A program made the translations under genes and the position numbers. The notes below the pieces were generated by a model, which was given only the letters and a program-made list of their open reading frames with translations, made no database searches and had not been told where the DNA came from. Positions 30,298-42,232 of a stretch of 43,654 nucleotides of DNA are shown here, in pieces; the stretch's first letter is position 1, and each line of letters begins with the position of its first letter. Source of the stretch: Terriglobia bacterium (GTDB lineage Bacteria > Acidobacteriota > Terriglobia > Bryobacterales > Bryobacteraceae); contig JAIQFS010000049.1 in assembly GCA_020073145.1 (NCBI GenBank), positions 1-43,654 on the forward strand, written 5' to 3'.

Positions 30298-32169
30298 GTG
30301 CCTACGCTTACCGTCAAGAAGACGGCCCTTTGGGCCGCGGGCGTCATCGCCGCTCTCACTCTCATTTCCACGACCATCGCCCAGCAGCCGCGCGCGGTGG
30401 ACGCAAAAGTTCTGCAAACCGCCGGCACCGCCAAGGACGCACTGCCGGGCACCTGGCTCACCTACGGCCTGACGCAAACCGAACAGCGCTATAGCCAGCT
30501 GAAGCAAATCGATGAATCGAACGTCGGCAAGCTGGGCCTGGCCTGGTCGGCGCCCCTCGCTCCGGCAGGAAGCCGTGGGGGCACCGAAGGCACGCCTCTG
30601 ATGTGGAACCATACCATCTTCCAGCCGATGGACAACAGCATCGTGTACGCCTTCGACGCGTTCACCGGCGAACAGAAGTGGATGTACGATGCCAAGATCG
30701 ATCCCGCCACCCGGACCCATATGTGTTGCGGCACGCACAACCGCGGGCTCGCCCTCTTCGACGGCAAGATTATCCTGGCGGCCAACGACGCCCGGCTGAT
30801 CGAGCTCGATGCCAACAGCGGCAAGGAGTTGTGGCAGAGCAAGGTCGCGGACATCAATCAGTACTATTCCTTCACCATCGCGCCGCGCATTGCGGGCGAC
30901 AAAGTCATCGTCGGCGTGGGCGGCGGCGAGTTCTTCATTCGCGGCTTCTTTGCGGCGTACAACCTCAAGGACGGGTCGCTCGCCTGGAAGTTCTACACGG
31001 TTCCGCCGAAGCCCGGCGAGCCTTTGGAGGACAAGGCCCAGGAGGCCGCGGCCAAGACCTGGACGGGCGACTGGGCCAAGTACGGCGGCGGCGCCCCGGT
31101 GTGGGACGGCCTGGTGTATGACCCCGAAACCAACCTGGTGATCGCCGGCACCGGCAACGCGGAACCGTGGCCGCAGGAAATGCGCGGCATCCCCAAATCG
31201 GAGTGGGGGAAGTGGGACAACCTCTACACTTGCTCCATCGTCGCCGTGGACGCCAAGACCGGCAAGTTGAAGTGGTATTACCAGACCGTCCCCACCGACA
31301 GTTGGGACTTCGATTCCGTGGGCGGCTTCATCATGGCCGATGTCCAGATCGAAGGCAAAACGCGCAAGGTCATCATGCAGGCGCCCAAGAGCGGTGTGTT
31401 CTACATCCTGGACCGCACCAATGGACAGTTCATCTCGGCCGAGCCCTTCGTCCCGGTGAACTGGGTGACGGGCTTCGATAAGAAGAACAATGGCAAGCCG
31501 ATCATCAATCCGGACGCCTACTACGATCAGACCAATTCGGTGGTGATCTACCCGGGCGGAGGCGGCGCGCACAACTGGGCACCCATGTCTTATAACCCGA
31601 ACGCCGGCTTGGTCTATCTGCCGTACAGCGCCGGCAGCTACACCTTTAACGCGGCCGCGGAACCCGATCCCCGGGCCGGCGGCGGCGCGCATGGGTTGGG
31701 CCGCGGCGGACAGGATAAAAAGACCACCCCGATGCCGATCTGGGGCCCCGACAACGTAGGCCGCGGGGGCCTCCAGGCCCGCGATCCCAAGACCAACCAG
31801 ATCAAGTGGGTGAAGACGGGACGGGGCGGATCGATCGGCGGCGGTACGATGACCACGGCCAGCAACCTCCTGTTCCAGGTGGCCGGCAACACGCTCTACG
31901 CCTACAAGGCGGACACGGGCGATGAACTGTTAGCGCTGCCGTTCAATCTCCCCGGCGCAGCTCCCCCCATCACCTACATGATCGACAACACGCAATTCGT
32001 CGGCTTCGCGACCGGCACCCAGTTCCTGGCGATGAAGGTAGGCGGCACGGCGAAAATGCCGGATCCTCCTCCCGCGCCGGCCTTCGGCCGCGGCCGGGGC
32101 GCGCCGCCGCCTCCCCGCGCGCCTGCGCCGGCTCCGGCGGAAGCACCGCACGGCCAAGAGAAGCAATAG
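30298..32169 (+). CDS. PQQ-dependent quinoprotein alcohol dehydrogenase
   Basis: Secreted periplasmic beta-propeller dehydrogenase of 623 residues using pyrroloquinoline quinone. A signal segment lies at about 8-29 (ending TIAQQP). The vicinal cysteine pair that packs on PQQ is C143-C144 in HMCCGTHNRG. Calcium and PQQ ligand region motifs are GTGNAEPW (about 284-291) and SWDFDS (335-340), the latter containing the catalytic Asp region. Propeller W-motifs such as GKELWQ, GSLAWKFY and GKLKWYY recur. The tail (about 585-623) is rich in Pro, Ala and Gly (PPPAPAFGRGRGAPPPPRAP), unlike typical family members. It lacks a fused cytochrome domain, and the next gene supplies one. The start is GTG at 30298 after AGGGGA. 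The substrate, an alcohol or sugar, cannot be fixed. Confidence 0.92.
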   Translation: MPTLTVKKTALWAAGVIAALTLISTTIAQQPRAVDAKVLQTAGTAKDALPGTWLTYGLTQTEQRYSQLKQIDESNVGKLGLAWSAPLAPAGSRGGTEGTPLMWNHTIFQPMDNSIVYAFDAFTGEQKWMYDAKIDPATRTHMCCGTHNRGLALFDGKIILAANDARLIELDANSGKELWQSKVADINQYYSFTIAPRIAGDKVIVGVGGGEFFIRGFFAAYNLKDGSLAWKFYTVPPKPGEPLEDKAQEAAAKTWTGDWAKYGGGAPVWDGLVYDPETNLVIAGTGNAEPWPQEMRGIPKSEWGKWDNLYTCSIVAVDAKTGKLKWYYQTVPTDSWDFDSVGGFIMADVQIEGKTRKVIMQAPKSGVFYILDRTNGQFISAEPFVPVNWVTGFDKKNNGKPIINPDAYYDQTNSVVIYPGGGGAHNWAPMSYNPNAGLVYLPYSAGSYTFNAAAEPDPRAGGGAHGLGRGGQDKKTTPMPIWGPDNVGRGGLQARDPKTNQIKWVKTGRGGSIGGGTMTTASNLLFQVAGNTLYAYKADTGDELLALPFNLPGAAPPITYMIDNTQFVGFATGTQFLAMKVGGTAKMPDPPPAPAFGRGRGAPPPPRAPAPAPAEAPHGQEKQ

Positions 32170-32355
32170 CGCAGCGGTGGGCAGCCTTTCAGGCCGCAGA
32201 CACTTTCAGCGGGTCCCGCCGGAGGAACGCCCCGGCGCAGCAGGTGTGTCATTCGCAGGGAACTGCCTCGCGCGCCCGGCGCTCCGGATTTTGTCACGGT
32301 GCCCGCGCACGGTGCGCCGGTGGTGGTATTCTCTGAAATGCGCAGGCATAAAACT

Positions 32356-32862
32356 ATGAATCGTAGAGCACTCCGGACCTTCGCCATGCTGGGTTCAGCC
32401 CTGATCGTTGCGTCCGGCCAGCAGTCCCATCGGGGCGGAATCTTTACCTCGGCGCAAGCGGAGGCGGGGCGTGTGGCCTACGAGAAGACCTGCGGAAGAT
32501 GCCACACTCTGACATTGACGGGGCGCCAGGGCAAACCCGAGGAGCGTCCGGCGGTCAGTTCTCTCTCGGAGGCCGATCAGAAATTCATCCAGAACTACAG
32601 CGGCCGCGTCCCGCCGCTCGCGGGCGAGGTGTTCCTCCAGCGCTGGGGATCGAAGACTGCTGCGCAACTGGTGGCGCGCTTTCAAGAGGCCCGCTTCTCG
32701 TTTGAGGAGGCCGGGCTCACCGACGACGAGAGCATCGTGCAGATCACGGCGTATGTCTTGCAGGTCAACGGAGCAAAGTCAGGAAGCCAGCCCCTGACGC
32801 GAACTACCGATACGATCGTGAGTTCGGCGACTTCGAATTTCGAGGCCTCGCCGGTTCGGTAG
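32356..32862 (+). CDS. Cytochrome c, probable electron acceptor of the PQQ dehydrogenase
   Basis: Secreted c-type cytochrome of 168 residues with a signal peptide (about 1-22) and one heme site, CGRCH at 46-50. The axial methionine is not obvious. The region after the heme (RVPPLAGEVFLQRWGSKTAAQLVARF) matches the layout of the short cytochromes that follow quinoprotein dehydrogenases (W-x-x-x-T/V-x-x-L). An alternative start is the in-frame ATG at 32338. The ATG at 32356 gives a clean signal peptide. The gene starts 186 bp after the dehydrogenase, so it may have its own promoter or be read through. It carries electrons from PQQ to the respiratory chain by inference. Confidence 0.85.
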   Translation: MNRRALRTFAMLGSALIVASGQQSHRGGIFTSAQAEAGRVAYEKTCGRCHTLTLTGRQGKPEERPAVSSLSEADQKFIQNYSGRVPPLAGEVFLQRWGSKTAAQLVARFQEARFSFEEAGLTDDESIVQITAYVLQVNGAKSGSQPLTRTTDTIVSSATSNFEASPVR

Positions 32863-32920: not shown

Positions 32921-34447
32921 CTACCGTCTGGCGACCTTCTTCGGGGCGGGCTTGTCTGCGGCGCCGGCAGGAACCGGAACCGTGATCGATCCTGCTTTGC
33001 CCGTCTCCACCTTGCCGAACAGCAGTCTCAGATCCGCGGCCTTCGCGGGAATCCGAAACCGATCGTGGAATTGGAAGCCGTCGCGTTGGAACGATGCATA
33101 GGTAGCCGGTTTCAGATTCAGCACCAACGTATGCGAACTCGTCTCCCCGACCGTCTTTCCGTCGGCCGCCGTAAAGCGAGCCACCACTTCGAGATTGCCC
33201 TTCCATCGGCCCTGCTTCTGCTCCAGACCGAAGGAGGCCACATCCAGCGCGGCGACCACGTCCATCATCCCGTGGTCCTCCTTCACCTGGGCCGTGACCG
33301 GGATCGACACCGCGTCAAACGGGTTGCCCAGCGCCATCACGAGCGCCGCCGCTTTCCCCTTGTCGGGATTCGGGGGGGCCGGTGGCGGCGCGTCCACGGA
33401 GTCCTCGGTGCGATAACGCAAGGTCACGCCCGGCCGCGTCACCCGAACCGCCAGCTTGTAGGGGGTGGCTCTCCGCCGGTCGTCGCTCTGCCGGTAATAA
33501 CCCAGCGTGTAACTCACGCGCCCATCGTCCATCGCCTCGCGAATCGCCACGTGCAGGTCATTGCGCCCGTAGAAGGCCAACCCGCCCGACATTTGTGCGA
33601 TGCCGTCCATTTGCCGGCGCCGTTCGTACGGCGACTTCACGCCCGCCGGGTCCAACGGATAGATGGCAACGTTCGCCCGCGCCAGCCGGAACAGCCGGCG
33701 TGGATCGGCGGCGAATCGATTCGCCATCCAGATCAAGTTCTTGCGCCCCGGAATCGCCCCCAAATAGGCAGTGAGTTGATCGATCTCCCGGTTGATGGCG
33801 TCCACCCGCAACTGTCCGTCGACCGAGGAAATCTCGAGAGCCACGTTGCCGGATAGCCCGGGCGGAGGGGCTGGCAGATCCGAGTCGACTGCGGTGACCG
33901 GTGTGTCGGGCGAGGGAGTCCACTTGGTGAGCTGTTCTTCCAGGCGCGCGCGGTCCGTCGCGAATTCGCACACCACCTGAAGCCTCCACCGGATCGCGTA
34001 GATCGCGATTTTTTCGCCGGCTGGGAGGGAGCGCAGCATCTTCAGCGTCTCCGTGCGCGCCCATGCCGTCCCATCCTCGCGGAAGGGGTCTCCGAAGTCG
34101 GTGTTCAGATTGTCGAGTAAGAGGATGGAATACCCGCTATGCGGGTCTGTCGTAGCGTTGCGGGCATCCCGGTTGGTGTAGACGTCGGGTTGCCGCGGCG
34201 CCGCGCTCTCTCCGGCCTTCTCGACGGTGGCCAGGAAGAGCCGGATATTTTGCGGCGCGCCATCCTCCCGCACTTGGAACTCGTCCCGCCGCAGGTCCGC
34301 GACCGGCTTGCCCTGCTGGTCGCGCGCGATCACGCTCAACTGCACTAGTCCCACATCGCTGCGGAAGACAGGCTCGTCCTGCCCAAACGCGAGCAGAGCG
34401 GCAAGAAATGGCATTCCAACGAAGACACGCCGCGCGAGACAACCCAT
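32921..34447 (-). CDS. VWA domain protein, acidobacterial TIGR03436 type
   Basis: Product of 508 residues with a signal peptide (about 1-21, FLAALLAFGQ). The TIGR03436 start motif is present: VGLVQLSVIARDQQGKPVADLRRDEFQVREDGAPQNI. The von Willebrand fold follows with SILLLDNLNTDF, where D-N-L-N-T takes the place of the D-x-S-x-S metal motif, a common variant in this family. The C-terminal half has beta-rich segments (VTRPGVTLRYR; SHTLVLNLKPATYASF) and a basic Lys/Pro tail (KPAPKKVARR). Function is unknown. The family is expanded in Acidobacteria. The start ATG at 34445-34447 has no clear ribosome site. The frame continues to 34852 only as shadow across the next gene. Confidence 0.88.
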   Translation of the reverse strand: MGCLARRVFVGMPFLAALLAFGQDEPVFRSDVGLVQLSVIARDQQGKPVADLRRDEFQVREDGAPQNIRLFLATVEKAGESAAPRQPDVYTNRDARNATTDPHSGYSILLLDNLNTDFGDPFREDGTAWARTETLKMLRSLPAGEKIAIYAIRWRLQVVCEFATDRARLEEQLTKWTPSPDTPVTAVDSDLPAPPPGLSGNVALEISSVDGQLRVDAINREIDQLTAYLGAIPGRKNLIWMANRFAADPRRLFRLARANVAIYPLDPAGVKSPYERRRQMDGIAQMSGGLAFYGRNDLHVAIREAMDDGRVSYTLGYYRQSDDRRRATPYKLAVRVTRPGVTLRYRTEDSVDAPPPAPPNPDKGKAAALVMALGNPFDAVSIPVTAQVKEDHGMMDVVAALDVASFGLEQKQGRWKGNLEVVARFTAADGKTVGETSSHTLVLNLKPATYASFQRDGFQFHDRFRIPAKAADLRLLFGKVETGKAGSITVPVPAGAADKPAPKKVARR

Positions 34448-34679
34448 GGGAGTTTGAGGAATTCCTCGTTTCTCCGATTTTGCAGGCCATCTTACCAGAT
34501 TCGGGGGAATGGAGGCGACGCCATTTCGGGATGCCGTAGGCGGCGACCACGGCTCGCACGGCGGACGCCAGGTATGCAAGGATCGGGCCTCTCGATCAGG
34601 TGGTGGACCCCGTTCGGGCAAGCGAGGCTGTGAACGTCGCCCGAGATGTTTCGGTGAGCTTCCGAGGCATCGGCGGCCA

Positions 34680-35741
34680 TTATTTCTTGTGCCGCCCCGC
34701 AAGCTCCTCGATCGCTGTTGTGAGGTCGTTATCGTCCGGACCCACGATCCGGAAAAGGCGTCCGTCGGCATTGATGAGCGCGACGGCGGGAAAACCCTGA
34801 ATGCCGAATGCGTGGAACGCCTGCCCATCGGTATCCACAGCCATCGGCACACGCGGTTTCATCCGTTTTTGGTAGGAAGCGAGATTTTTGGGCGTGGTCC
34901 AGAGACGCGTCACCACTTCCAGCCATTCGACCGAGCCGTTTTGTGACAGCTCGTCTGCCTGTTCGCGGGCGCGACGGCACGCTTCCACGGTTTTCGGCTC
35001 GATGTCTTTCAGGTAACTCTCACACCATGTTGCCGTGAACAAGACGGCTCTGGGCCGCCCTGTCCGTACGAGTTCGGCCGGCGAATTGTCGGGGCCGCGC
35101 AGTTCCACAGAAGGTACAAGGTCGCCCGGCCGCAGCGCCGCCGCAGATTGAATATTTGTGGTTTCGATGCGCGTCTGACGCTTGCCGGCGAGCACGCGTT
35201 CAAGCGCTGCATCGAGCGGTGGACCGTCCCGGTGTCCGGCATAGGCGATCCGGCCGTCCATGCCAATCAATAGATGAACCGGTGTGGAGTCCAGCTTGAG
35301 CCACCCGACAAGCGATCCGTCGTCAATAGCGACCGGCATATGCATGTTCGCCTCGGCCACAAACTTGCGGACCTTAGCGGGCTCGTCGCCAATACCGGCG
35401 TTGACGGCAACGACCTGCATCTTCGTACCATACCTCTCGTAGATCTTCTCGAAGCCGGGCATCTGAGCCCGGCACGGAATACAATAACTGGCCCAAACCT
35501 TGAGGTACACCGGCTTGTGGCCATAGTTGTTCACGATGTTGATGGTGCCTCCATGGATCGATCGCAGGGTGATATTCGGCCCAGGACTGCCAACCAACCG
35601 GGCCAGCTCAGGATCTTCGGCGACGTATCCGGCATCGCCCGGTTTGGCGGCTGGATAGTCGGTCAGCGAATTGGCGGCATGAGTCAAACTGGCAAGGCCG
35701 CACAAATAGATGGCGACAATCACGGCGTGTCGACTGAACAT
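34680..35741 (-). CDS. Two-domain TlpA-like thioredoxin-fold protein
   Basis: Exported protein of 353 residues with two thioredoxin-fold domains. A signal peptide covers about 1-23 (IYLCGLASLTHAA). Domain 1 (about 50-185) has the active site WASYCIPC (C87, C90) and the cis-Pro region STPVHLLIG. Domain 2 (about 205-353) has ATWCESYL, where the second cysteine is replaced by Y (C240 and Y243), and the cis-Pro block GIQGFPAVALINADGR. Domain 1 should reduce or oxidise disulfides. Domain 2 should be unable to do normal dithiol exchange and may be structural or peroxidase-like. The ATG at 35739-35741 follows AAGGAGAG. It lies 29 bp after the cupin gene, so it shares its operon. Confidence 0.88.
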   Translation of the reverse strand: MFSRHAVIVAIYLCGLASLTHAANSLTDYPAAKPGDAGYVAEDPELARLVGSPGPNITLRSIHGGTINIVNNYGHKPVYLKVWASYCIPCRAQMPGFEKIYERYGTKMQVVAVNAGIGDEPAKVRKFVAEANMHMPVAIDDGSLVGWLKLDSTPVHLLIGMDGRIAYAGHRDGPPLDAALERVLAGKRQTRIETTNIQSAAALRPGDLVPSVELRGPDNSPAELVRTGRPRAVLFTATWCESYLKDIEPKTVEACRRAREQADELSQNGSVEWLEVVTRLWTTPKNLASYQKRMKPRVPMAVDTDGQAFHAFGIQGFPAVALINADGRLFRIVGPDDNDLTTAIEELAGRHKK

Positions 35742-35770
35742 GGGATCTCTCCTTGGACCGTAGGTATCTT

Positions 35771-36250
35771 TCACCGTGCGGGTGCCGTGGTCGCAGCGCC
35801 CTGCGGGCCAATCACAATCGCCAGTAGCTTCACGGTCTCATCCGGTTTCGCGCTGGCATGCGTGGTGTGCGTGGCGCCGGGCGGTTCATAGAAGATCTCA
35901 CCCGCATGCACCACCCGCGGCGCCTCGTTGTTGATCGCGAACAGGTAATCCCCTTCGATGACATAACCGAGCACGAAGCCCGAATGGGTGTGGGGCCGCG
36001 ACGGGGGGGCGCCCGGCCGAATCGTCAGCGCGGCGAAGGCTGCGTCCATGCCCGTGAATGGGGCGGGCAGCGGCTGCCGCAGGGCTCCTCCCCCACTGCG
36101 GGCGGGCGGTCCGGCGTTCGGGGTCTGCTGCGCATTGACGGTTTCCGATGCTCCGATCCCCATCAACGCGGCCGCCATCAGCGCATTCAGGAAATTCCGC
36201 CTGTCATTCCCGCCTGTTTCATCGATATCGTTTTCTGTTCTGAATTTCAT
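35771..36250 (-). CDS. Tat-exported cupin domain protein
   Basis: Product of 159 residues. Twin-arginine signal NDRRNFLNALMAA (R17-R18) followed by a hydrophobic run to about 40, so export is by the Tat route after folding in the cytoplasm. The cupin fold shows metal-binding motif 1, HTHSGFVLGYVIEGD (H87, H89, E99), and motif 2, EPPGATHTTHASA (H128). Single-domain cupins of this sort are oxidoreductase- or isomerase-like or bind metals. The role is not readable here. The ATG at 36248-36250 follows AAGGAG. It sits between the membrane cytochrome gene and the TlpA gene. The 138 bp upstream hold a short hairpin (36320-36337). Confidence 0.88.
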   Translation of the reverse strand: MKFRTENDIDETGGNDRRNFLNALMAAALMGIGASETVNAQQTPNAGPPARSGGGALRQPLPAPFTGMDAAFAALTIRPGAPPSRPHTHSGFVLGYVIEGDYLFAINNEAPRVVHAGEIFYEPPGATHTTHASAKPDETVKLLAIVIGPQGAATTAPAR

Positions 36251-36319
36251 TTGTGTCTCCTTAACAAAATAGGCTTGTGCACACTTCAAGAGATTGATGC
36301 GCGTTTTCGCGACGAAGAG

Positions 36320-36337
36320 GTCGACCCGGGGGTCGGC
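36320..36337 (-). promoter_or_regulatory. Short hairpin between cytochrome and cupin genes
   Basis: Stem GTCGACC (36320-36326) / GGTCGGC (36331-36337) with one G-T pair and a CGGG loop. No T tract follows on either strand. Possible mRNA processing or attenuation site. Weak evidence. Confidence 0.3.
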
Positions 36338-36388
36338 CGCAGACCGGCGGGCTGCCCCATAATTGTCTCCTTGTTGGTCCTATGCAGG

Positions 36389-37279
36389 TCATCGTTTTCC
36401 GTACCTTGTAAAGAGGTACTGGATGAGGGTCGCTTTCTCGGCTTCGCTCAGCGTGGCCCCGTAGGAAACCATGGTGGAGACCAATTCCCGATAGGGCTCC
36501 TCGGAATCATAGGAGTAGTTCTCGATGCCGTTCAGATTGTGGCAGCCCGTGCAGGCCCGCTCCAAAATCGCCCGACCGGCCGTATCCACTTCGGGGGCGG
36601 GTTTGGCTGCAAGGTTTTCGAAGAGATAGTCGGTAAGCGCCGGAGCTTCTTGTTCGGAGACCATGGCGCCCATCGCGATCATGCGCGAAACCACTTCGGC
36701 ATACTGGGCTCGCGTGGCGTAATGGTACAAGCCCACGGACGCGGCGCGATGACAGGCGCCGCACGCGCGGTCCAAAATCACTTTACCTTCGCCGGGAGGC
36801 AACAGGGTAAATCGCACCCGCCGGCGGGAGGCCTGGACCGGTGGCGGAGCGGCCGCTTGTGGATGCGTGGCAGCCCTGGATGGCCGCGGTTTGTTCGGTT
36901 TCGGGACGGCGAATGTTACCGGGGGTGTCGCCTCAATGCCGGACCGCGAGGATGGAACCGACGCTTGGGATTCCGAAGTCCGCGTCGAAGCGGATTTCGG
37001 CACCAAGGTCGAACCGGACCGGCTCTCCAGCCTCCACTGAACAACGGCTCCGCCCACGATCGAGAGGCAAACGAGAGCCATCGCTCCGCCGATGTAAAAC
37101 GGCCGGCGAAGAACAGTCGGGTCGGCTGGGGTGGCGTCGGGCGGAGGCAGTGGCGCCGTTAGCCGAGGGTCAATTGTCAGATTTTCACGAACCCGTTGCC
37201 GGGACAAGTCCAGCACTTCCGGCGGCACGCGCCCCAGCCTGCCTAGCGCGCGGCGCAACATATCCTTTTCAGACGCCAC
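36389..37279 (-). CDS. Membrane-anchored di-heme cytochrome c, putative partner of the ECF sigma factor
   Basis: Product of 296 residues. About 60 cytoplasmic residues, with a helical start (DMLRRALGRLGRVPPEVLDLSRQRV) like that of some anti-sigma proteins, precede one membrane helix at 61-82. A low-complexity periplasmic linker follows, then two tandem copies of a 60-residue c-type heme domain, CGACH at 173-177 and CTGCH at 243-247. Each repeat continues with Y-x-x-(L/V)VSxM and a G-A-(M/T)-(V/L)-S-E pattern. The copies clearly arose by duplication. The GTG start at 37277-37279 follows AAGGAGGG, and the gene overlaps the sigma factor gene by 11 bp. In ECF systems the overlapping second gene is usually the anti-sigma factor, so a heme-based redox sensor controlling sigma is proposed. 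That is inference. Confidence 0.82.
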   Translation of the reverse strand: MASEKDMLRRALGRLGRVPPEVLDLSRQRVRENLTIDPRLTAPLPPPDATPADPTVLRRPFYIGGAMALVCLSIVGGAVVQWRLESRSGSTLVPKSASTRTSESQASVPSSRSGIEATPPVTFAVPKPNKPRPSRAATHPQAAAPPPVQASRRRVRFTLLPPGEGKVILDRACGACHRAASVGLYHYATRAQYAEVVSRMIAMGAMVSEQEAPALTDYLFENLAAKPAPEVDTAGRAILERACTGCHNLNGIENYSYDSEEPYRELVSTMVSYGATLSEAEKATLIQYLFTRYGKR

Positions 37280-37802
37280 GGTTCCCTCCTTTCCGAGTTC
37301 CCGAAAGATACTTCCTTAAGCGGGAACGCGATCGGTACAGACTGACGGCCACGGTGCTCCGCGTCGTGCCCAGCATCCTTGCAATGTCGGCAAGGCTGTA
37401 ATCGTGCACATAGCGCAGGATCACTACCTGGGCGGCCGCCGGATTGAGCATCGCTATCGCCTCACGTAAGGTCTGATCCAGCGCCAGGTCCTCTGCACTG
37501 GCATCACCTGTATCGTAGATGGTGTCGAAGACCTGCATATCGTCGGTCAACACCTCGCGCTTTTTGTCCCGAATGGTGTTGAGCGACAAATTGAAGGCTG
37601 CCCGGTAAAGATACCGCTCTGGTGTGGTGTCGAGGTCCGGCGGAAGTTCCCGATTCAGCAGGCGTACAAAAATCGTCTGGACAATGTCCTCAGCATCGGC
37701 CGCGCTACCGGTGACGCTATAAGCCGTGCGATAGATCAGTTCGTAATGCCGGTCGAAGATCCGTTCAAGCTGCTGAGACAGCTGCTTCGGCGCTTCGCCC
37801 AT
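37269..37802 (-). CDS. ECF-type RNA polymerase sigma factor
   Basis: Sigma-70 family factor of 177 residues with only regions 2 and 4, as in the extracytoplasmic-function group. Region 2 (about 12-80) has FDRHYELIYRTAYSVTGSAADAEDIVQTIFVRLL and the YLYRAAFNLSLNTIR segment. Region 4 (about 105-167) has LNPAAAQVVILRYVHDYSLADIARMLGTTRSTVAVSLYRSRSRLR with the helix-turn-helix. I use the ATG at 37800-37802. A TTG at 37815-37817 has a better purine-rich leader and could add five residues. It is the first gene of the cluster containing the membrane cytochrome, cupin and TlpA-like protein, and overlaps the cytochrome gene. It probably directs transcription of its own operon. Confidence 0.94.
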   Translation of the reverse strand: MGEAPKQLSQQLERIFDRHYELIYRTAYSVTGSAADAEDIVQTIFVRLLNRELPPDLDTTPERYLYRAAFNLSLNTIRDKKREVLTDDMQVFDTIYDTGDASAEDLALDQTLREAIAMLNPAAAQVVILRYVHDYSLADIARMLGTTRSTVAVSLYRSRSRLRKYLSGTRKGGNRGV

Positions 37803-41175: not shown

Positions 41176-41264
41176 CCGTGGTAATCCGGGAACGATAGTT
41201 TGGCGCGAGTGCTGTTACGTTCTGTCTGTCACCGCTTTCCAGCGTTCTTCAACCGAAGGCTCCT

Positions 41265-41684
41265 ATGAACGAGCAACCAACGAATGAGCAGTATTCCGGA
41301 GTGCGCGATCGAGAGATCCGTGCGGCTCTGGATCAACATTGGGCGGCGTCGGATGCCAACGATTTTGAAACGGAGCACCGCATCTATCGCGAGGACGCGG
41401 TGCTGGAATACCCTCAGTCCGGCGAGCGGACCCGCGGCCGGCACAACATCCAGAACCAGCGCGCCAGTCAGCCGAGCCAAAAGCGGTTTGCTGTCCGCCG
41501 GATCCTTGGAGGCGGTGATCTTTGGATCACGGAATTCGTCCTGACGTATGACGGCAAGCCGTCCTACACGGTGAGTATCATGGAGTTTCAGGGCGACCAA
41601 GTGGCGCGGGAGACCCAGTACTTCGCGGATCCATTCGCGGCCCCCGCAGGGCGCGCTCACTGGGTGGAACGGATGGACTCGTAG
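41265..41684 (+). CDS. NTF2/SnoaL-like small protein
   Basis: Product of 139 residues with the cone-shaped NTF2 fold pattern: an N-terminal helix (DREIRAALDQHWAASDANDFETEHRIYREDAVLEYPQSGE), then strand-rich blocks (RRILGGGDLWITEFVLTYDGKPSYTVSIMEF) and the closing RETQYFADPFAAPAGRAHWVERMD. The motif E-x-R-I-Y-x-x-D-A-V-L-E-Y-P is common in polyketide-cyclase-like and stress-linked SnoaL relatives. No signal peptide, so cytoplasmic. It starts at ATG 41265 with AAGG upstream. It is 90 bp after the permease but could have its own promoter. The substrate is unknown, and many family members have no known reaction. Confidence 0.85.
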   Translation: MNEQPTNEQYSGVRDREIRAALDQHWAASDANDFETEHRIYREDAVLEYPQSGERTRGRHNIQNQRASQPSQKRFAVRRILGGGDLWITEFVLTYDGKPSYTVSIMEFQGDQVARETQYFADPFAAPAGRAHWVERMDS

Positions 41685-42232
41685 CGTCGAGGCGCGAGAA
41701 CGGCCTTCAGGGAAGCGTCGTCGGATTACTTCCGGGAAGTCAAGTGGGAGCGTCCACTCAGAACTGGACGATGGGGACGAGGGTGCCGATATTTTTCCGG
41801 GGGCCGTGACGGATTTTCGCGTCGCGGGGCGGGAAGGCAGGTGCCGGCGCATGTGGGCTGACGGGGCGTGATGCGTGATTCCCGGGAGCCGTGTCGAAGG
41901 GCCAGTTTTGGCGGTGGTCCGGGCTGGAGATTCACGAATGTGGGTTTTCGGGGAATGGGTGCGCCGTGGGAGTGGATAGGAGAAACCTGGGGTGTTTGTG
42001 GGGACGGATCCTGCCGAGCGCCGGTATATAGCCCATTGTCCGAGTGGCGCGTCACTCGCTCCGAGCCTGCAGGTTCTCGGCTGTCCGACGGCGCAGACGT
42101 ACCATCTGAGTTCACTCAAAATCGGCTTGCTGGTCGATAACCTACAGCGGAGGAAACTCCAATCGTACTCGCTATCCCGACTGCGACCAGGCGCAGCCGC
42201 CGATCCTCGTTATCTCGGCCAGCGATGCCGGT
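41685..42232. other. Intergenic region between NTF2-like gene and ImmA fragment
   Basis: About 550 bp. Overlapping short frames on both strands show no family pattern and no good ribosome sites. I see no gene, RNA or repeat here. Confidence 0.45.

Follow-up and report, generated by a model that had tools for sequence, protein, structure and literature searches.

The known periplasmic inputs to regulators of extracytoplasmic function (ECF) sigma factors are iron carriers, envelope damage and ligands. Here we describe an ECF sigma factor gene overlapped by the gene of a membrane-anchored diheme cytochrome c, in contig JAIQFS010000049.1 of a Terriglobia bacterium (assembly GCA_020073145.1); the whole analysed stretch of 43,654 nucleotides is called the window below. 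One described system that resembles it is FecI/FecR of E. coli, also an ECF sigma factor with a membrane regulator whose short N-terminal cytoplasmic part acts on the sigma factor. According to the excerpt of PMC9249621, FecI-dependent transcription is induced by as little as the first 59 residues of FecR, fragmentation of FecR still occurs after replacement of large C-terminal parts, and the signal passes via proteolysis by Prc and RseP. Unlike FecR, the window cytochrome showed no match to the FecR domain (PF04773) in a Pfam search that covered nine window proteins with matches to an E value of 0.1, and no TonB-dependent receptor was present among the neighbouring proteins tested, the rest of the genome not having been searched for one.

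Two further classes of regulators share some features with the window protein. Zinc-containing class I anti-sigma factors such as RsrA and ChrR are likewise encoded next to their cognate ECF sigma factor, and the class includes redox sensing (excerpt of PMC7406223); unlike them, the window protein lacks the zinc-binding signature of that class, and its predicted cofactor is periplasmic covalent heme. The sensors GSU0582, GSU0935 and those of the sCache_heme (DUF3365) family are also signalling membrane proteins with covalent heme c facing the periplasm, but according to the excerpts of PMC3460858 and PMC12889525 they are PAS or Cache folds with an inserted CXXCH on kinases, chemoreceptors and cyclic di-GMP enzymes, whereas the window protein has cytochrome c domains on the head of an ECF regulator. 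sCache_heme (PF11845) had no match in it, and the terms 'anti-sigma', 'ECF' and 'sigma factor' do not occur in the main text of the heme c sensor paper PMC12889525. Among the matches listed in the open-licence literature, judged by title and start of abstract, no report of an ECF regulator with a cytochrome c domain was recognised, which is weak evidence of absence.

Nearer in sequence are acidobacterial pairs of an ECF sigma factor and a FecR-DUF3738 protein with a short head (loci L108, L112 and L113). The window shares with them one sigma clade, an overlapping partner gene, a short head without zinc motif and a membrane helix; unlike those partners, with their periplasmic FecR and DUF3738 domains, it has two heme c domains. 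We hold with moderate confidence that the pair in the window is an ECF sigma factor with its membrane regulator, and that both go back to a sigma/FecR module of Acidobacteria whose periplasmic FecR(-DUF3738) portion gave way to a duplicated diheme cytochrome c. Such sigma/FecR modules are known; what is new is that a diheme cytochrome takes the place of the sensory part. This reading draws on features recognised in the sequence, namely the position of the cytochrome gene in the partner slot, its overlap with the sigma gene, the homology of its predicted head, one membrane helix, two heme c motifs with their Met residues, and the fact that no FecR or zinc domain was detected. The main features, all on the minus strand, are as follows.

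37269..37802, minus strand: ECF sigma factor, 177 residues, ATG start chosen; matches Sigma70_r2, Sigma70_r4_2 and TIGR02937
37284..37292, minus strand: Shine-Dalgarno sequence AAAGGAGGG of the cytochrome GTG start, within the sigma gene
36389..37279, minus strand: membrane-anchored diheme cytochrome c, 296 residues, GTG start, proposed sigma regulator
37100..37279, minus strand: predicted cytoplasmic head, residues 1-60, sharing homology with those of FecR-type sigma partners
37037..37099, minus strand: transmembrane helix, about residues 61-81, from hydropathy
36815..37015, minus strand: Pro/Ala/Ser-rich linker, residues 89-155 (12 Pro, 10 Ala and 11 Ser of 67)
36596..36814, minus strand: first c-type heme domain, with CGACH (residues 173-177) and the invariant Met200
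36392..36595, minus strand: second c-type heme domain, with CTGCH (residues 243-247) and the invariant Met270

The 3′ end of the sigma gene runs 11 bp into the cytochrome gene; a strong Shine-Dalgarno sequence lies 4 bases upstream of the GTG start of the latter. This overlap, given in a preliminary description of the locus, agreed with the open reading frame (ORF) coordinates, and the architecture described there for the cytochrome (a head, a single membrane helix and two duplicated heme domains with CGACH and CTGCH) was confirmed as well.

The sigma factor and the partner slot

The window sigma factor is a true ECF member, scoring 91.1 bits with TIGR02937 against a cut-off of 42.9, and 47.5 and 52.3 bits with Pfam Sigma70_r2 and Sigma70_r4_2, respectively. 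Its relatives were drawn from 61 near, 237 family, 399 class, 11 order-of-best-match and 386 phylum genomes; these draws overlap, and matches were kept only under strict E-value limits. In 59 of the 61 fetched sigma loci (best matches, the window excluded), an ORF with a FecR domain lies immediately 3′ on the same strand, and in the two exceptions, L109 and L148, the contig ends about 240 bases past the sigma stop, where the same partner type begins. Thus, FecR-type partners accompany the near part of this sigma family, the window being the exception. A contig scan yielded 16 further loci with 21-33% identity, which stand outside the 61-locus partner count. The preliminary description had suggested surveying whether the sigma-cytochrome pair co-occurs across Acidobacteria; the pair was seen only here, and it is FecR proteins that co-occur with the sigma family.

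The closest sigma relative found was L108, with 53% identity. In a tree of 47 sigma proteins (L045, L051, L057 and L107 having been removed by a strict text pattern), where the label 'zf' was assigned by default to all loci without a short head, the window sigma factor clustered with L108, L112 and L113 (support 100/99), L108 being its sister (97/84). All three come from one genome, G701, which belongs to another family of the same class. Within the 237 genomes of the window's family, the best match had no more than 45% identity, and matches from its own genus had 35-37%; these values would fit acquisition of the sigma gene from another lineage. A more distant member of the sigma family, L066, also occurs in the window's own genome; it has 37% identity, and its partner is of the zf-HC2/FecR type.

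The partners of L108, L112 and L113 consist of a short head without zinc motif (read by eye), a membrane helix, FecR (PF04773) and DUF3738 (PF12543). A zinc motif is present in the heads of other relatives: zf-HC2 scored 25.3 bits in L066 and, in L043, 19.7 bits, which is under the cut-off. In the architecture of the three partners, the zinc anti-sigma part seems to be lost and the N-terminal stretch retained, hinting that the contact to the sigma factor lies in this stretch. In G701, the three partner genes overlap their sigma genes.

The head of the window cytochrome is followed by a single membrane segment, the best 19-residue window being residues 62-80 with a mean hydropathy of 2.08, compared to 0.74 for the best one outside residues 50-95. 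Its alignment with the L108 head covered about 50 residues with a local score of 57, which none of 5000 shuffles reached. A profile of 35 heads, all of the zinc type and excluding the window and the three short heads, scored the window head at 11.3 bits; the best of 370 unrelated N-termini reached 4.9 bits, and no more than 7.4 bits came from any of 2707 internal tiles; in an earlier profile control, the window head scored 10.1 bits and the best shuffle 8.5 (12703 of 20000 shuffles reported). The strict text pattern used in selecting loci kept 34 of 43 sigma loci in one step and 35 heads from 48 loci in another. With the L108 match as chief support, we conclude that the window head is homologous to the heads of FecR-type partners. 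An own-genome paralogue of the head was considered and rejected, the only matches having E values of 0.45 and 0.70; a weak match to cytochrome residues 8-118 (E value 0.07) was also found in that genome.

Several observations weigh against the proposed exchange. The head is short, and its homology is carried by one strong pair, that with L108: 343 of 5000 shuffles scored as high as the alignment with the L112 head and 4049 of 5000 as high as that with the L113 head, and the 35-head profile gave the genuine L108 head only -1.3 bits. zf-HC2 is absent from the window cytochrome by Pfam search and residues 1-60 contain no Hx3Cx2C, so that, with no recognisable class I anti-sigma domain, sigma binding is predicted by no domain found. 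The zinc motif is missing from many class I anti-sigma domains, according to the excerpt of PMC7406223. A single-sequence AlphaFold2 model of the cytochrome was poor, with a mean predicted local distance difference test (pLDDT) score of 46 and values below 50 over residues 1-186; its helices at residues 4-13 and 20-33 agree with the head but carry no weight at such values. The upstream regions of the sigma and cupin genes share no 10-mer with one mismatch (0, compared to a shuffle mean of 1.2). Lastly, the fusion is known from one instance in one genome.

The preliminary description had suggested that the cytochrome, as the overlapping partner, might be the anti-sigma factor. Its place in the regulator slot is supported by the head match to the L108 partner and by the FecR-type partners of the other loci; it is not an ordinary anti-sigma factor, neither a zinc anti-sigma domain nor a FecR domain having been found.

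Heme domains of an electron-carrier type

The two heme domains form an internal duplication, with a local score of 124 that none of 2000 shuffles reached. They were aligned with 18 chosen relatives, which are diheme cytochromes without the head and 22-30% identical to the window protein, and C173, C176, H177, M200, C243, C246, H247 and M270 were invariant in all 19 rows. Met200 and Met270 are candidate heme ligands, and because they are invariant, a redox signal is favoured over a diatomic gas. The best NCBIfam match was SorB (NF052246) with 37.7 bits. Like SorB diheme cytochromes, which are found beside molybdoenzymes of the sulfite oxidase type, the window protein has CXXCH and Met in a heme domain that is duplicated in the aligned relatives; unlike SorB, it scores far under the cut-off of 93 and has no SorA-type partner gene among the nine window proteins tested, and the aligned relatives lack the head. 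A search of PDB sequences gave two weak matches, to an amine dehydrogenase heme domain (E value 0.05) and to an engineered protein (E value 0.13).

An ORF with a molybdoenzyme-like motif adjoins the cytochrome in 11 of 31 fetched loci of heme-part relatives, and the three such neighbours tested all matched both Oxidored_molyb and Mo-co_dimer, as do enzymes of the sulfite oxidase kind; none of the 12 heme-part loci from the window's own family had such a neighbour. The heme part therefore looks like an electron-carrier type common in the phylum, joined to the head of a sigma partner. A profile of the window's sigma family found no member within about 1.5 kb of the heme-part relatives in any of 67 other loci (58 and 9). 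Distant ECF genes near heme loci could escape this narrow profile, which did not detect an unrelated ECF gene of L070. In that locus, from a relative in the same phylum (L070:226-3184), an ECF sigma gene and an NrsF-type regulator gene (PF06532, 58 bits) are convergent to a molybdoenzyme and diheme cytochrome pair. A different ECF system, as in L070, may watch this molybdoenzyme/diheme cytochrome type too.

According to the preliminary description, homologous cytochromes found mostly without a sigma gene would refute a regulatory link. For the heme domains this is the case (0/67), and it does not refute a role as regulator, because the aligned relatives have no head.

Proposed mechanism and alternative explanations

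Since the periplasmic FecR domain would have been swapped for a diheme cytochrome c, sigma activity probably follows the redox state of the hemes. The replaceable C-terminal part of FecR, as given in the excerpt of PMC9249621, makes such a swap mechanically plausible. The head would bind the sigma factor and retain it at the membrane as an anti-sigma factor; alternatively, a cleaved head could be needed for sigma activity, as in a pro-sigma function like that of E. coli FecR. The hemes would be loaded in the periplasm and would exchange electrons with a periplasmic partner. A redox change, or the presence or absence of attached heme, could then alter the conformation, docking or protease sensitivity of the regulator and expose it to periplasmic and then intramembrane proteolysis, by which the sigma factor would be released. 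More tentatively, the diheme cytochrome c holding the sigma factor could report the redox load of the pool of periplasmic cytochromes or else the attachment of heme c (apo versus holo form), with a ResA/TlpA-like thioredoxin encoded downstream as a possible repair output.

The head could regulate the sigma factor while the hemes are no sensor, the protein being a bifunctional tethered electron carrier that responds to another signal such as docking of a partner enzyme or proteolysis. We consider this unlikely, even though the heme domains are of a widespread electron-carrier type, with molybdoenzyme-like neighbours in 11 of 31 loci (Oxidored_molyb and Mo-co_dimer in 3 of 3 tested), and the His/Met-type motifs suit electron transfer: no Oxidored_molyb match, and thus no molybdoenzyme, was found among the nine window proteins tested, and a pure carrier would not need the head of a sigma regulator. 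Genes adjacent to a sigma gene are often targets of that sigma factor. It is also conceivable, with a still smaller probability, that the cytochrome is such a target, an ordinary membrane-anchored electron carrier whose head is a mere leader, the true anti-sigma factor being encoded elsewhere. The 67 heme-part loci without a neighbouring member of the window's sigma family agree with this; set against it are the match between its head and that of a sigma partner, the FecR-type partner in the same slot in 59 of 61 loci, and the fact that the flanking proteins tested, one of which (41229-42119) had no family match, included no further recognisable sigma regulator.

A functionless fusion, recent, decaying or artefactual, through chance recombination or an assembly join, would account for the single instance. 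No second fusion of head and heme part was seen in the window's own genome, in 61 near, 396 phylum and 237 family genomes, or in a pattern scan of contigs; the draws overlap, and a diverged fusion could be missed because only 6-14 candidates per genome were scored in the larger ones. The matches listed for the whole cytochrome, besides the window itself, were to the heme part and in a few cases to the low-complexity linker, the best other score being 63 bits. Such an origin is nevertheless highly improbable given the open frame of 296 codons, the intact heme motifs and Met residues and the strong ribosome site, and an assembly join would have had to be in frame. Guanine-plus-cytosine (GC) content at third codon positions is even along the gene, with 0.67 in the head, 0.73 in the membrane helix, 0.69 in the linker and 0.70 in the heme part.

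If the exchange of the FecR part is real, a cytochrome c has become the sensory domain of an ECF sigma regulator by domain exchange, and a diheme cytochrome in the FecR position would connect electron flow directly with RNA polymerase. As far as sequence comparison can suggest, the cell could sense electron flow outside the inner membrane and switch genes on accordingly, and FecR-type regulators would be modular, a head of about 60 residues being able to bear different periplasmic parts.

Downstream genes and surroundings

Two genes on the same strand follow the cytochrome gene, and the cupin and double-thioredoxin proteins named in the preliminary description were both recovered by ORFs and Pfam matches.

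35771..36250, minus strand: small cupin with twin-arginine translocation (Tat) type export signal, 159 residues, ATG start chosen, Cupin_2 with an E value of 3e-10, possible target or accessory protein
34680..35774, minus strand: double-thioredoxin protein, 364 residues, GTG start, probably exported, Redoxin with an E value of 2.4e-17, possible target or accessory protein

The cupin carries the twin-arginine stretch DRRNFL (read by eye). The double-thioredoxin protein has one CxxC, CIPC (Cys98 and Cys101), in a TlpA/ResA-like first domain, and Cys251 and Cys266 without CxxC in the second; its best NCBIfam match, a ResA subfamily model, reached 80 bits, under the cut-off of 170. No relative of it was found at an E value of 1e-30 in the 100 other genomes of one search; in the search for the cupin, 5 of 100 other genomes have relatives at 1e-12; no relative of the window sigma factor was recognised at those cupin loci in gene lists read by eye. 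The cupin and thioredoxin genes are possible targets of the sigma factor. A loose ECF-type promoter pattern had no match in ten upstream regions, and the minus strand of the region yielded no sigma-70-type promoter. The cupin gene overlaps the thioredoxin gene by 4 bp, while 138 bp lie between the cytochrome and cupin genes, which leaves a single operon uncertain.

The locus has no odd base composition that would mark an island, its GC content being 0.59-0.62 over 34-38 kb compared to 0.57-0.70 across the window. The neighbours tested comprised a von Willebrand factor A (VWA) domain protein, the cupin, the thioredoxin, PadR, FtsX, a weak M78-peptidase match and the protein at 41229-42119 without a match. 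The VWA protein (32921-34471, minus strand), encoded downstream of the thioredoxin on the same strand, is a member of TIGR03436 (158.3 bits), an acidobacterial protein family. At 30298-32862, about 3.5 kb away from the sigma/cytochrome pair, lie a gene resembling pyrroloquinoline quinone (PQQ) dehydrogenases and then a c-type cytochrome gene; the former scores 478.8 bits with TIGR03075, just below the cut-off of 480.05, and resembles the acido-empty-quinoprotein model too. Between the cytochrome and cupin genes, a 24-codon ORF (36286-36360, minus strand) has a strong ribosome site, AAGGAGACAATT, and includes an imperfect inverted repeat noticed by eye.

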